Source: a candidate division WOR-3 bacterium
Lineage (GTDB): Bacteria; Hydrothermota; Tepidihabitantia; Tepidihabitantales; Tepidihabitantaceae
Reading direction: 5' to 3'
NCBI GenBank assembly: GCA_013177935.1
Contig: JABLXZ010000002.1
Span: forward strand, 248,001-312,000
DNA: 64,000 nt
Positions 11,478 through 51,456 of the stretch are shown in pieces (the first letter of the stretch is position 1; every line of letters begins with the position of its first letter). The notes under the pieces are model-generated. The model was given only the letters and a program-made list of their open reading frames with translations, was not told the origin of the DNA and ran no database searches. The position numbers and the translations under genes were made by a program.

Positions 11478-11650
11478 TTTTACCCTCCCCTTTTTCCCCT
11501 CCCGTAAATGGAGGGGAAACGGTAGGAGCTCCCATTAAGGGATTGATAACAGTTCCTATCAAAGAAGTGGTAGTAGTTCCCGTTAAGGTAGTGGTAGGAT
11601 GTTCCGTTAAAGAAGTGGGAGGAGTTTCCATTAAAGAAGGGGAAGGCGGT
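11478..11650 (+). repeat. Dyad-repeat array with exact 24-bp period
   Basis: The core ACCCTCCCCTTTTTCCCC, then TCCCGTAAATGGAGGGGAAA is followed by units whose TTAA/TCAA loop recurs at 11535, 11559, 11583, 11607 and 11631, exactly 24 bp apart. Linkers read GTGGTAGTAG or GTGGTAGGAT. It lies downstream of the transaldolase. Confidence 0.8.
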
Positions 11651-21374: not shown

Positions 21375-22295
21375 ATGAAGATTGGTATTACGCTTGGCGA
21401 CCCGGCAGGAGTTGGTCCGGAAACGGTACTGCGGGCGCTGCAGGAAACAACGCGCTGGGATGTTTTGCTCATCGGTGCCGAGGAGGTTTTGGTGCGGGAG
21501 TCAAGACGACTGAAAGTTGATTATGATGGTGCCGAGGTGATTGACACAGGACCAGTTGGTAAGTATGAGTACGGCAGGGTGCAAAAAAATTGTGGTGAGG
21601 CGGCGTTGCGAGCGCTGGAAAAAGGGGTGGAGTTGTTGAAAAATGGCACGATTGGTGCACTTGTTACCGCACCGGTTTCCAAGGAGGCGTTAAGGCTTGC
21701 CGGTTTTCCGTTTCCGGGGCAGACCGAGTTTATTGCCCAACGGTTAGGCGCCCGGCGCTATGCGATGCTTGCCTGGTCAAGACGGTTCAAGGTAATTTTT
21801 GTGACAATCCATCTGCCAGTCAGGCAGGTTGCCTCCCTGATTACCGCCCGCGCGGTGCGGGAGAAGATATTACTCCTTGACGACTTTTTAAGGCGAGAAA
21901 GCCGAAAGCGATTTAATAGAAGAAGGCAACCAAAGATTGGGGTATTTGCCTTCAACCCGCATGGTAAGGAGTTCTCTCTGGGTGAGGAACGGCGAATTGA
22001 AAGCGCGATCAAAGCGGCACAGAGAAAAGGGATAGCGGCGGCAGGACCGATTCCGGCCGATGCCATTTTTGCCCATCTGGATGATTTTGATGGGTTCGTC
22101 GCGATGTACCACGACCAGGCGATGATTCCGGCAAAGATTCTATCCCGAGGGAGGGGGGTTAATGTAACCTTGGGGCTAAAAAAGTTTCGGACCTCTCCGC
22201 TGCACGGCGTTGCTTTTGATATTGCGGGCAAAGGTCTGGCATCACACCACTCAACGCTTGCCGCAATTCAACTTGCCCGGAAACTTGCCCGATAA
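21375..22295 (+). CDS. pdxA: 4-hydroxythreonine-4-phosphate dehydrogenase (PdxA)
   Basis: 306 aa, slightly shorter than the usual 325-330. It opens MKIGITLGDPAGVGPETVLR, and ALVTAPVSKEA and GQTEFIAQRLG lie mid-protein. Metal-binding histidines are visible in TIHLPVRQV and MYHDQAMIP, and the end has the GKGLASHHSTLAAIQLA stretch. PdxA oxidises 4-phosphohydroxy-L-threonine in DXP-dependent pyridoxal phosphate synthesis; PdxA2-type paralogues act in sugar-acid breakdown. No other pdx gene is in the window. It follows the ABC operon by one base. Confidence 0.9.
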   Translation: MKIGITLGDPAGVGPETVLRALQETTRWDVLLIGAEEVLVRESRRLKVDYDGAEVIDTGPVGKYEYGRVQKNCGEAALRALEKGVELLKNGTIGALVTAPVSKEALRLAGFPFPGQTEFIAQRLGARRYAMLAWSRRFKVIFVTIHLPVRQVASLITARAVREKILLLDDFLRRESRKRFNRRRQPKIGVFAFNPHGKEFSLGEERRIESAIKAAQRKGIAAAGPIPADAIFAHLDDFDGFVAMYHDQAMIPAKILSRGRGVNVTLGLKKFRTSPLHGVAFDIAGKGLASHHSTLAAIQLARKLAR

Positions 22296-22366
22296 AGCAT
22301 TTTAACCAAGTGCGCCCGATTGTTTAACACATTGATAATCAGTCAGTTATAACCGCAAAATAAAAT

Positions 22367-22500
22367 GTGAGGTGGATGCGGCCAGGGCCGGTTTCAGGCG
22401 AGGCTTTTTTGGTGGGATTGGAATGCGAGGGCATTCCTTTGGGCTTTTTGAGGAGTTTGAGATGCCGTTCCGTCGCCTGAAACAACCGCCTCCACCTCAC
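22367..22500. repeat. 134-bp nested inverted-repeat element
   Basis: The outer arms GTGAGGTGGATGCGG (22367-22381) and CCGCCTCCACCTCAC (22486-22500) pair at 14 of 15 positions. Inner arms GTTTCAGGCGA (22391-22401) and TCGCCTGAAAC (22473-22483) pair perfectly over 11. A central hairpin GGAATGC-gagg-GCATTCC spans 22420-22437. Two similar GGCTTTTT tracts flank the central hairpin. It lies between pdxA and asnA and holds no reading frame. It could be a small non-autonomous mobile element or a structured RNA. Confidence 0.75.
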
Positions 22501-22610
22501 CAAATTGTGGTTAATTTTAACACCCCCTAAACCTTTTGTCAACAAAAATCTTTAATTAAATTTTCGGCGGGCAAATTAACCCGGGCGGGAGTTTTTGGTA
22601 TTACTAATCC

Positions 22611-22703: not shown

Positions 22704-23960
22704 ATGAAGAAAAAACAGAAAAAAGCGGTAAAGAAAACCGCACGCAAGACGGTTAAAAAAGTTCCCAAGAAAAAAGTAACCAAGAAGACACCGAAGAAAG
22801 CACAGCTGAAGAGTGCGGCACCGACGCTTCTTGACCGGAAGCGAGCGGACCTGGCTGGTCCTGGTGTCGGCACCTATGAAGAGGTAGAAAAGGTTTTGCC
22901 GACCGATTATCAGCCGATTCTGCCGCCCTTGAAGCGGATGGATGCGCTCTTTATGGTCAAGGAGTACATTGAGAAGAACCTGTGCCGGGAATTAAACCTG
23001 CATATGGTTCAGGTACCCTTGATTGTGGAGCGGGAGTCCGGTGTTAACGACTATCTTGACCGGGATGGTTCAAGGACGCCGGTCGAATTTCCCTGCGGTT
23101 TAGGGATTTCTCCCCGAATCAACGCCCAGATTGTGCAGGCAGCGACGAAGTGGAAGCGGATGGCGCTGGCGCAGTTCGGATGCAAGGTAGGCGAGGGGAT
23201 TTGCACCGATATGCGAGCGGTAAGGAAGGATTACTTCCTCGACCACGACCACTCTTCTTATGTTGACCAGTGGGACTGGGAGAAGGTTATTACCGCGGAG
23301 GACCGAAACCTTGATTTTCTCAAAGATGTCGTACGGAAAATCTGGAAGGTGATTGTTGGAGCGTCTCACCTTGTTCAGGAGCAGTTCCCGGAGTTGCGCA
23401 CGACAAAGTATCCACCGATTCCTGAAGAGTTGACCTTCATCCATGCCGAGGAGATTCTCGAAATGTATCCGGACCTACCACGCAAGCAGCGCGAGACCAA
23501 ACTGCTTCAGGAGTATGCACCGGCGGTATTCATCATCGGGATTGGCTATCCTCTGGCAGATGGGTTACCCCATGAGATGCGAGCGGCAGACTATGACGAT
23601 TGGATTACCGATACTTCGCACTGGACCGGTAAGCCGACGCACGGGTTGAACGGCGACATCCTGGTCTGGAATCCAGTGACCAGAAGGCGGCACGAGTTGA
23701 CTTCAATGGGTATCCGTGTGACGAAGGAGACCCTGGTTCAGCAGTTGAAGATGGCGAAACAGGAGCATTTCCTTGAGTTGCCCTATCATCAGGCGATTAT
23801 GAATGACCGGGTTCCTCTATCAATCGGTGGCGGCATCGGGCAGTCGCGAACCTATATGTATCTGTTGCGCACCGCGAGCCTGGGTGAGGTTTCGGTTACG
23901 GTCTGGCCCAAAGTGCTAAAAGAGATTTGTGCGAAACGGAACATCATCTTTCTTGAGTAG
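22704..23960 (+). CDS. asnA: Aspartate-ammonia ligase (AsnA) with lysine-rich N-terminal tail
   Basis: 418 aa against about 330 for E. coli AsnA. The core (about 70-418) carries YVDQWDWEKVI, DYDDWITDTSHW, HGLNGDILVWNP and IGGGIGQSR, which form the ATP and aspartate sites of this class II synthetase-like fold. It makes asparagine from aspartate and ammonia. Residues 1-38 are mostly Lys with Ala, Thr and Val (KKxxKK, TARKTVKK), like the tails of histone H1-type bacterial proteins. An AAAAAGGAG site precedes ATG 22704, so the tail is translated. The tail may bind nucleic acid, but that is inference. Confidence 0.93.
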   Translation: MKKKQKKAVKKTARKTVKKVPKKKVTKKTPKKAQLKSAAPTLLDRKRADLAGPGVGTYEEVEKVLPTDYQPILPPLKRMDALFMVKEYIEKNLCRELNLHMVQVPLIVERESGVNDYLDRDGSRTPVEFPCGLGISPRINAQIVQAATKWKRMALAQFGCKVGEGICTDMRAVRKDYFLDHDHSSYVDQWDWEKVITAEDRNLDFLKDVVRKIWKVIVGASHLVQEQFPELRTTKYPPIPEELTFIHAEEILEMYPDLPRKQRETKLLQEYAPAVFIIGIGYPLADGLPHEMRAADYDDWITDTSHWTGKPTHGLNGDILVWNPVTRRRHELTSMGIRVTKETLVQQLKMAKQEHFLELPYHQAIMNDRVPLSIGGGIGQSRTYMYLLRTASLGEVSVTVWPKVLKEICAKRNIIFLE

Positions 23961-30661: not shown

Positions 30662-32782
30662 ATGGCGAAAAAAGATTTATTGATTGTTGAGTCGCCAACC
30701 AAGGCGCATACGATTAGCCGGCTCTTAAAAGGCAAGATAAAGGTGCTTTCGTCCCGGGGACACATTGCGGATTTGCCGAAATCCCGGCTCGGGGTTGATA
30801 TTGAGAACGGGTTTGAACCAGAGTACATTAAAATCCGGGGTAAGGCGGCTATAATCAATGAGTTAAAAACGGCGGCAAAGCAGGCAAAGACGGTTTATTT
30901 GGGTTGTGACCCGGACCGTGAAGGTGAGGCGATTGCCTATTCCGTGGCACAGGAGTTGAAGAACGGTGCACCGATAAAACGGGTGTTGTTTTACGAAATA
31001 ACACCGAGGGGGATTGAAACCGCGTTCCGTTCTCCCGGCGAGATTGACCTCCGTAAGGTTGATGCTCATCGGGCACGCCGCGTACTTGACCGGCTGGTAG
31101 GGTATCTTGTTTCACCCTTACTATGGCGTACAGTGCGGGCGGGAAAGTCGGCAGGACGGGTGCAAACCGTTGCCCTGCGGATTTTAGTTGAGCGGGAGCG
31201 GGAGATTGCGAATTTCCAATCTGAAGAGTTCTGGGTGGTACGGGCGATTTTTATGCGCGCGAGCGGCGAGAGATTTGAAGCGCAACTGGTAAAAATCGCC
31301 AATCAATCGTTCCAATTAAAAGACCGGTCTGCAGTGGAAGTGGTGCGTCAGGGGTGCGAGAAGGCACAGTTCAGGGTTAGCGCGGTGAAATGCCGCGAGC
31401 GGCGCAAAAGACCACTCGCCCCATTTGTGACCGCAACGCTATTAAAGGAAGCGGGGCAGTTGTTTAAGTTCAGTTCGGCGCGCACGATGCGCATCGCGCA
31501 GCGGTTGTTTGAAGGGGTAGATTTGAAGGAAGAGACGGTCGGTTTGATTACCTATCCCAGGACCGACTCATTTCGAGTAGCGGAGGATGTTATCGACGGG
31601 GTGCGGGATATGATTGTTAAGGTCTATGGCAGGCAATTTCTTCCAGACAAGCCCCGTGTCTATCCAGACCGCAAAGGTGCTCAGGGTGCGCATGAGGCGA
31701 TTAGGCCAACGCGCTTGGATTTGACCCCAGAGCAGGTTAAGCCATATTTGACACCGGATGAGTTTAAGGTTTATGAGTTAATTTTTCGCCGTTTTGTCGC
31801 CAGCCAGATGGCGGATGCTCTGTACAGTCTCACCGAGGTTCTGGTCGAAGGTGGCGATTACACCTTCCGGACCGAGGCGGTGAGAAGGGTGTTTGAAGGA
31901 TTTGAACGGGTTTACGGTGAACCGGATAAGGAAAGCGCATTGCCGGAACTCCAGGAAGGCGAACTGGTTAAGATGGCGGAATTCACACCAGAACAGAAGT
32001 TTACTCAGCCGCCACCCCGCTACACAGAGGCAAGTTTAATCAAACGGTTGGAAGTGAATGGCATCGGCAGACCATCGACCTATGCGACGATTGTCCCAAC
32101 TTTGATTGAGCGTCGGTATGTTGAGAGAAAACAGGGAAAGTTGGTTCCAACGGAACTGGGGATGGTGGTGAACGACATTTTAATTCCCCGTTTTGCTAAC
32201 ATATTTGAGATTGGTTTTACCCGCGAGATGGAAAAGGAGCTTGACCAGGTTGAGGAAGGGGAAGAAAACTGGCGTGAGGTGGTGGCACGGTTTTATCAAC
32301 CTTTTAAGGAGGATTTAGACCGGGCAGAGGCGGAGATGAGCGAAATCAAAGATGGTTTAATCCGGGAGCTTAACGAACATTGTCCGAAGTGCGGCTCGGT
32401 TCTGGTAGAGCGCTGGGGTAGGTTTGGCAAATTTATATCGTGTGCAAAATATCCGGAGTGCGATTATGTGAAAAAGAACGAAGAGAAACCGTTGGCGGAT
32501 AGCTGTCCGAAGTGCGGCAAGCCGTTGGTTGAGCGACAGAGTAGGTTTGGTAAATTCGTCTCGTGCTCCGGTTATCCGGAATGTGACTTTATAAAACGGC
32601 CACCTAAAGAACCGCCTAAACTCCTTGAACAGACCTGTCCGAAGTGCGGCAAGCCGTTGGTTGAGCGACAGAGTAGGTTTGGTAAATTCATCGCGTGCTC
32701 CGGGTATCCGAAATGCCGGTTCGTCCAGAAAAACAGAAAGAGAGAGAAAAAAGAGGGGAAGAATGAGATGGACCAAAAATAA
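30662..32782 (+). CDS. topA: DNA topoisomerase I
   Basis: 706 aa. The TOPRIM domain opens with LLIVESPTKAHTI and has CDPDREGEAIAY. The catalytic tyrosine is Tyr298 in ITYPRTDSF. Three C-terminal C4 zinc ribbons follow, each of the form CPKCG..L.ER..RFGKF..C..YP.C; the second and third share 55 identical bases. The tail is lysine-rich. It relaxes negatively supercoiled DNA. A short PPC-domain gene starts inside its last 20 bases. Confidence 0.96.
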   Translation: MAKKDLLIVESPTKAHTISRLLKGKIKVLSSRGHIADLPKSRLGVDIENGFEPEYIKIRGKAAIINELKTAAKQAKTVYLGCDPDREGEAIAYSVAQELKNGAPIKRVLFYEITPRGIETAFRSPGEIDLRKVDAHRARRVLDRLVGYLVSPLLWRTVRAGKSAGRVQTVALRILVEREREIANFQSEEFWVVRAIFMRASGERFEAQLVKIANQSFQLKDRSAVEVVRQGCEKAQFRVSAVKCRERRKRPLAPFVTATLLKEAGQLFKFSSARTMRIAQRLFEGVDLKEETVGLITYPRTDSFRVAEDVIDGVRDMIVKVYGRQFLPDKPRVYPDRKGAQGAHEAIRPTRLDLTPEQVKPYLTPDEFKVYELIFRRFVASQMADALYSLTEVLVEGGDYTFRTEAVRRVFEGFERVYGEPDKESALPELQEGELVKMAEFTPEQKFTQPPPRYTEASLIKRLEVNGIGRPSTYATIVPTLIERRYVERKQGKLVPTELGMVVNDILIPRFANIFEIGFTREMEKELDQVEEGEENWREVVARFYQPFKEDLDRAEAEMSEIKDGLIRELNEHCPKCGSVLVERWGRFGKFISCAKYPECDYVKKNEEKPLADSCPKCGKPLVERQSRFGKFVSCSGYPECDFIKRPPKEPPKLLEQTCPKCGKPLVERQSRFGKFIACSGYPKCRFVQKNRKREKKEGKNEMDQK
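32503..32689 (+). repeat. Duplicated zinc-ribbon coding segment in topA
   Basis: Bases 32503-32557 and 32635-32689 are identical over 55 positions, 132 bp (44 codons) apart, encoding the second and third zinc ribbons. Flanking codons differ, suggesting recent duplication or gene conversion. Confidence 0.85.
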
Positions 32783-38173: not shown

Positions 38174-38345
38174 AACAGGGCACTTTCCTTCCTTGCGGAA
38201 AGGGAGAGTGTACCCTCCCCTTTTCCCCCTCCCATAATAGGGAGGGGAGTTGCAGGAGGGATTCCCATAAATCTCGGGGAGTCGTGAGACGGGTTTTCAT
38301 CTGTGGAGGAGAATGGTGGCAGGAGCCTCTGTAAAGGAAGGTGAG
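38174..38345 (+). repeat. Dyad-repeat array, 32-33-bp spacing, between aminotransferase genes
   Basis: A short CTTTCC-TTCCTTGCGG-AAAG unit is followed by TACCCTCCCCTTTTCCCC, then CTCCCATAATAGGGAGGGG, and degenerate units anchored at 38234, 38267, 38299 and 38331. Linkers end in GGCAGGA or GGGA. The last unit runs into the next gene's ribosome-binding region. Confidence 0.75.
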
Positions 38346-51192: not shown

Positions 51193-51221
51193 AGGTTAGA
51201 CAGAAATGAGCCTTTTGTCAA
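51193..51221 (-). promoter_or_regulatory. Promoter for the lipoprotein operon (leaderless type)
   Basis: Minus strand TTGACA (51216-51221), 17-base spacer, TAACCT (51193-51198). The expected +1 is near 51186, the A of the second of two adjacent ATG codons. The -35 abuts the dyad-repeat array. Confidence 0.45.
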
Positions 51222-51456
51222 ACCCTCTCCTTTTCCCCTCCCATAAAGGGAGGGGAATGATGCAGGTTGTGATTCTTCCATAAAGGGAGGAGAATGATAG
51301 AGATTGTGGTTCTTCCAGAAAAGGGGGAGGATGCAGGTTGTGGTCCTTCCATAAAGTTAGGGGAATAATGCAGATTGTGACTCCTCCCGTAAAGGGAAGC
51401 GGTAACGATTCTTTCCCTCTCCCGTTGTGGGAGAGGGTAGGGTGAGGGCGTAAGAA
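51222..51456 (+). repeat. Dyad-repeat array, about 37-bp spacing, between lipoprotein and kinase genes
   Basis: The lead unit CCCTCTCCTTTTCCCC, then TCCCATAAAGGGAGGGG is followed by units anchored at 51278, 51315, 51349 and 51387, with linkers such as ATGCAGGTTGTG. The array closes with CCCTCTCCC-GTTGTG-GGGAGAGGG (51415-51436) and GGGTGAGGGCG, the reverse complement of the CCCTCACCC form seen at 4817. It may separate the lipoprotein and kinase transcripts. Confidence 0.8.

Follow-up and report, generated by a model that had tools for sequence, protein, structure and literature searches.

A nested inverted repeat beside pdxA almost certainly encodes a previously undescribed structured noncoding RNA of one WOR-3 order

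A nested inverted repeat in the genome of a candidate division WOR-3 bacterium is almost certainly the gene of a previously undescribed family of structured noncoding RNA (ncRNA) belonging to one WOR-3 order. The window, i.e., the whole stretch of 64,000 nucleotides analysed here, corresponds to G000:C2:248001-312000 (G000 being the genome of the window), and positions below refer to it unless another genome or contig is named. The gene, its strand, its structure, and the conservation of the RNA were established by computation, and expression of the RNA is predicted. The first-pass annotation had described a 134-bp repeat at 22367-22500 with three stems nested around one axis and no coding frame. 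The repeat is present at these positions, with an outer stem of 15 nt (22367-22381/22486-22500, 14/15 complementary), a middle stem (22391-22401/22473-22483, 11/11 complementary), and an inner stem (22420-22426/22431-22437, 7/7 complementary); the stems are nested as described but do not share a single axis, their midpoints lying a few bases apart. Folding of the 134-nt repeat gave -61.4 kcal/mol on the plus strand (z -3.76) and -58.6 kcal/mol on the minus strand (z -6.47), and 0/200 shuffles matched the fold on either strand. The absence of a coding frame was right in substance, although the minus strand does contain a 68-aa open frame. This frame is shifted by loop indels among the near relatives and is unconserved in the distant homologues, and a coding frame on the RNA strand was rejected on these grounds.

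No strand had previously been named for the repeat, and the minus strand is very likely the transcribed one. On this strand, the ncRNA gene extends over 22357-22507 with a predicted transcript of about 140-150 nt, as evidenced by the covariance models R1 and R2, the alignments, and the z score of the minus-strand fold. The covariance model match in the window covers 22362-22501, and the transcript ends are estimates, with the 3' end placed in a T-rich tail. A predicted sigma-70 promoter on the minus strand (22514-22542), consisting of TTGACA (22542-22537), a 17-nt spacer, and TAAAAT (22519-22514), has 11/12 consensus matches, and none of 200 shuffles equalled it. Among the 20 homologues, promoters with at least 10/12 matches were found for the RNA strand in 16 and for the other strand in three; in L084, one of the 16, the promoter overlaps the start of the RNA, and a recognisable promoter is mostly absent from family f4. 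Past the closing stem lies the T-rich, terminator-like tail (ATTTTATTTT, 22357-22366, minus strand). The 12 bases past the stem contained on average 7.9 T on the RNA strand vs 4.45 on the other strand of the 20 homologues, and at least seven T were counted in 16/20 vs 5/20, respectively. Moreover, an excess of G-U over A-C in the helices would be expected of an RNA read from the minus strand, and the helix cells contained 47 G-U vs 8 A-C combinations (28 vs 6 without the two U-G pairs topping P1, the closing helix). Mean MFE failed to separate the strands (-56.5 vs -57.7, with the RNA strand lower in 10/20). It is very improbable that the plus strand is instead the functional one, folding into a hairpin in which AGGAGGTTRAGATG supplies the ribosome-binding site (RBS) and the initiation codon of a very short leader peptide. 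On this strand, 20/20 homologues do have an ATG preceded by an RBS-like site, but the resulting peptides range from 2 to 77 aa and share no common sequence, and the evidence from promoters, T tails, and G-U pairs points uniformly to the minus strand; the leader peptide was therefore rejected.

Along the minus-strand RNA, the order of elements is P1, a C-rich bulge on the 3' side, P2 (11 to 13 pairs), and a large loop, within which an apical hairpin (P3) is found in most members. P1 comprises 17 pairs (5' strand 22484-22500, 3' strand 22367-22383) and connects the 5' and 3' ends of the RNA, and P2 is formed by GUUUCAGGCGA (22473-22483) and UCGCCUGAAAC (22391-22401), both helices being drawn from stem complementarity and alignments. 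The bulge between the 3' strands of P2 and P1 reads CGGCCCU (22384-22390), and the alignment revealed a C-rich bulge here in nearly all homologues. In the large loop, the alignment of 20 copies uncovered a near-invariant unpaired motif, represented in the window by CAUCUCAAACUCC (22452-22464), and a second C-rich unpaired stretch on the 3' side (AAUCCCACC, 22411-22419), for which CCUCC-type stretches are present in family f4 and absent in genus g3. Between the two lies P3 (GGAAUGC-CCUC-GCAUUCC, 22420-22437, from the fold and stem complementarity), which is variable in sequence and length in the distant homologues, with none visible in L058.

Both main helices are marked by compensatory changes. 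In the R2-fitted alignment of 20 sequences, which is biased towards the structure because it was fitted to the model, pairing cells reached 93.1 percent vs a shuffled mean of 72.7, and changes on both sides were seen in 25/30 pairs of P1 and P2. Compensatory cells in this alignment numbered 130 vs 40.2 in shuffles, a value attained by 0/500 of them, and fell to at most 26 when the partner was slid by 1-3 columns. When the six near sequences were simply aligned with MAFFT, three pairs showed both-side changes; P3 is invariant in this near group and so offers no test of covariation there.

A DNA search of 41 genomes recovered clear homologues in five relatives (88-97 percent identity), two belonging to the genus of the window and three to genus g5; the BLAST scraps L014-L027 were not counted as homologues. 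Model R1, built from the window copy and these five near relatives (six sequences), detected divergent homologues across the order and reported 18/28 genomes, 17 of them true, since L061 (G007), a plain GC hairpin matched by R1, was excluded as a false positive. Model R2, built from 17 sequences, found the RNA in 20/28 order genomes with one copy each (E 2.5e-26 to 6.3e-10), including G025, G026, and G027, which lay outside its training sequences; the order genomes with no R2 match were G005, G007, G011, G012, G018, G019, G022, and G024. Carriers amounted to 20/65 genomes of the class and 20/147 of the phylum. As the same 20 genomes were recovered throughout, the RNA was found in none of the other 119 phylum genomes, all outside the order, in a covariance search whose stricter filters may lose weak matches. 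Thus, the covariance search in relatives that had been proposed as a check revealed both the RNA and its pairing to be conserved across the order, and of the outcome that had been named as speaking against the feature, a lone copy whose pairing is not conserved in relatives, the first half is true and the second is not, pairing being strongly conserved.

The genes flanking the RNA differ between lineages. In the window, pdxA (21375-22295, plus strand, PF04166) is the convergent neighbour directly downstream of the RNA, and asnA (22704-23960, plus strand, PF03590) is the divergent one. By tblastn, pdxA adjoins the RNA in 13/14 loci of family f1 and in 0/6 loci of families f4 and f5, and asnA stands beside it in 3/20 loci, all in the genus of the window; neighbours elsewhere include a TPR protein and, in f4, Mut7-C and M23 proteins. 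The RNA 3'-terminal phosphate cyclase RtcA adjoins the RNA in 3/20 loci, from two distant lineages and on differing sides, upstream in two genomes of genus g5 (L046 and L047) and downstream in one of family f5 (L058), as called by Pfam for L046 and L058 and by likeness to L046 for L047. This change of neighbours argues that the RNA is a gene of its own, not a leader or terminator of one operon. A bidirectional pdxA terminator was also disfavoured, as the plus-strand hairpin is not followed by a run of T.

Copy number and position likewise bear on the earlier suggestion of a small non-autonomous element. A MITE-like mobile element would account for a non-coding centre flanked by long terminal inverted repeats, and yet this reading is scarcely credible, given a single copy in each of the 20 carriers, an orthologous site beside pdxA in the 13 f1 loci, compensatory evolution, and phage and plasmid collections with no match. 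A genome-wide search likewise returned one full copy, the other blastn matches being scraps of 14-21 nt, and inspection by eye agreed with the first-pass annotation in revealing no evident target-site duplication. The mobile element was accordingly rejected on its single copy, orthologous position, and lack of a plasmid or phage match. The other suggestion made for the repeat, a stable RNA, is upheld by the promoter, the T-rich tail, the compensatory changes, the order-wide conservation, and the pdxA synteny in one family.

The loop carries the near-invariant motif CAUCUYAACCUCC, which is identical in 19/20 copies and predicted to be unpaired with a mean probability of 0.67-0.92. The sole exception is the copy of the window itself (CAUCUCAAACUCC), where a C-to-A change in the motif core weakens Shine-Dalgarno (SD) pairing. 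The reverse complement of the motif (AGGAGGTTRAGATG) consists of a GGAGG SD sequence, a 5-nt spacer, and AUG, and the usual SD-to-AUG spacing in the genome of the window is 4-6. The RNA therefore presents an accessible loop complementary to SD regions, with one change in the window copy. An exact 14-mer complement of the loop was detected in 16/28 genomes, mostly at the RNA gene itself, and in G000 there was none. Seven further sites (L069, L070, L078, and L080-L083) are not RNA copies and resemble ordinary gene starts, two in G003, one in G015, two in G019, and two in G022; the RNA was not found in G019 or G022.

Pairing of the loop with mRNA starts is plausible but unproven, and the tests of it gave mixed results. 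A set of 368 gene starts came from the window together with 400 kb of contig C1, in all roughly one fifth of the genome. Against these starts, which were picked partly by SD score and hence favour an anti-SD loop, the consensus 5' loop formed duplexes with a mean of -14.97 kcal/mol, vs -12.19 (sd 0.79) for shuffled loops and -13.59 (sd 0.73) for controls keeping CCTCCTC, and the consensus value was reached by 0/60 controls of either kind. The loop variant of the window gave -14.18, and the 3' C-rich loop showed no clear preference for starts (-7.02 vs -6.60). A stricter test, the longest complementary run at 259 ATG starts, was null, with controls as good in 24/100 cases when AACCTCCTC was kept and in 10/100 full shuffles. 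Near-complement sites in the six near genomes exceeded a reversed-pattern control (e.g., 74 vs 45 in G000), and in the 13 loci inspected, 12 among the sites listed and one from the blastn search, they lay mostly within coding sequence. One inspected site, in G006, resembles a true start, and no orthologous start site recurred among the inspected loci of the six near genomes. Neither the exact 14-mer complements nor the near-complement sites inspected yielded a conserved mRNA target.

As a loop complementary to both the SD site and the start codon favours a translation-repressing small RNA (sRNA), pairing against ribosome-binding sites without Hfq is offered tentatively as the best single guess at the mechanism. 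According to this model, the RNA would be transcribed independently from the minus strand through its own promoter and terminating T tail, and would act in trans as an Hfq-independent regulator, with the exposed CAUCUYAACCUCC loop pairing with SD and start-codon regions and thereby lowering translation of the bound mRNAs. The long stem would supply stability to the RNA. An Hfq-dependent trans-acting sRNA presupposes Hfq in the genome, and Hfq (PF17209) was detected in 0/28 order genomes (the control matched in 5/14 known genomes). A broader proposal, which is rather unlikely, is that the RNA is an order-specific global regulator of translation, which, as one RNA per genome with a frozen complement of an ideal RBS and its start codon, would repress or store numerous mRNAs independently of Hfq, the change in the window copy marking a lineage with a shifting target set.

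Ranking close behind mRNA pairing is the possibility, held with still less confidence, that the partner of the conserved loop is a protein or the ribosome instead of mRNAs, so that the RNA would be a scaffold, a decoy, or the RNA of a ribonucleoprotein, and the anti-SD likeness would have arisen by chance or because the loop mimics the 3' end of 16S rRNA. This reading accommodates the null result of the run-based pairing test and a 13-nt motif with almost no sequence change alongside target sites that are not conserved, and RtcA is a neighbour in the two g5 genomes and one of f5. Set against it, no partner protein has been identified, and RtcA is adjacent in only three of the 20 loci and on different sides.

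A diverged form of a known housekeeping RNA (6S, SRP, or Y RNA) is even less probable than the plus-strand leader peptide. 6S RNA is a long, hairpin-like molecule whose ends pair and whose interior opens into a large bubble, and in Y RNAs, including YrlA, the 5' and 3' ends form a bulged stem and the loop is pyrimidine-rich. The WOR-3 RNA resembles the former in being an independent gene with paired ends and a large internal loop, and the latter in its bulged end stem, in its pyrimidine-rich loop, and in having RtcA next door in three loci. The 6S reading was first kept open because the Rfam 6S search matched 18/21 genomes but missed all three from the genus of the window. However, the 6S model (RF00013) left the element unmatched at E up to 10, and a conserved WOR-3 6S motif (GTCTTGAGCYAACRCC) located the 6S gene that the Rfam search had missed in this genus, at G000:C4:118522-118537 (L140) and G001:C1:906792-906807 (L139). 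In G002, 6S was not found, the sole motif match having two mismatches and being unlike 6S. The 6S identity was rejected owing to the separate loci in G000 and G001, and the carriers G006, G008, and G010 also have 6S at its own locus. SRP RNA (RF00169) was rejected as well, since it has its own locus (G000:C4:32472-32570). The Y RNA identity, which the RtcA neighbours had suggested, was rejected because the TROVE/Ro60 protein (PF05731) was found in 0/28 genomes of the order (the control matched in 1/14 known genomes). Furthermore, Rfam 15 gave no match at or above the gathering score in the window, and none within the RNA in the seven divergent loci searched out of 11.

Among regulatory RNAs, anti-Shine-Dalgarno sRNAs such as AbcR1 expose an anti-SD stretch that can mask ribosome-binding sites. 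The WOR-3 RNA shares such a stretch and differs in that its motif lies inside a large internal loop closed by the helix of the 5' and 3' ends, is near-invariant across the order, and occurs where no Hfq was found. An account of PmaR of Agrobacterium tumefaciens, which mentions AbcR1 in passing, describes PmaR as a small RNA with a long stem and a 'spoon-like' single-stranded loop containing several C-rich regions, through which it is proposed to act (PMC6234868). PmaR has the closest architecture encountered, and it is an analogue by shape from a different phylum, with no homology claimed; the WOR-3 RNA differs in its anti-SD-like loop and in an order with no detectable Hfq. In the literature library searched by full text, no paper combined WOR-3 with noncoding or small RNA. 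The present results add a well-supported structured RNA family that is absent from Rfam 15 and comes from an uncultured phylum, and its near-invariant anti-RBS loop, together with no detectable Hfq, offers a well-defined case in which translation control independent of a chaperone can be tested.

Two other repeats were observed in the window. A C-rich dispersed repeat of 48 nt (TACCCTCCCCTTTTTCCCCTCCC...) occurs in five copies (2595-2642, 2817-2864, 11481-11528, 38211-38258, and 51220-51267) with no evident link to the RNA gene. In addition, an 81-nt stretch is present in three close copies at 32380-32715 and by eye resembles a coding repeat of the CPKCG-type zinc ribbon.
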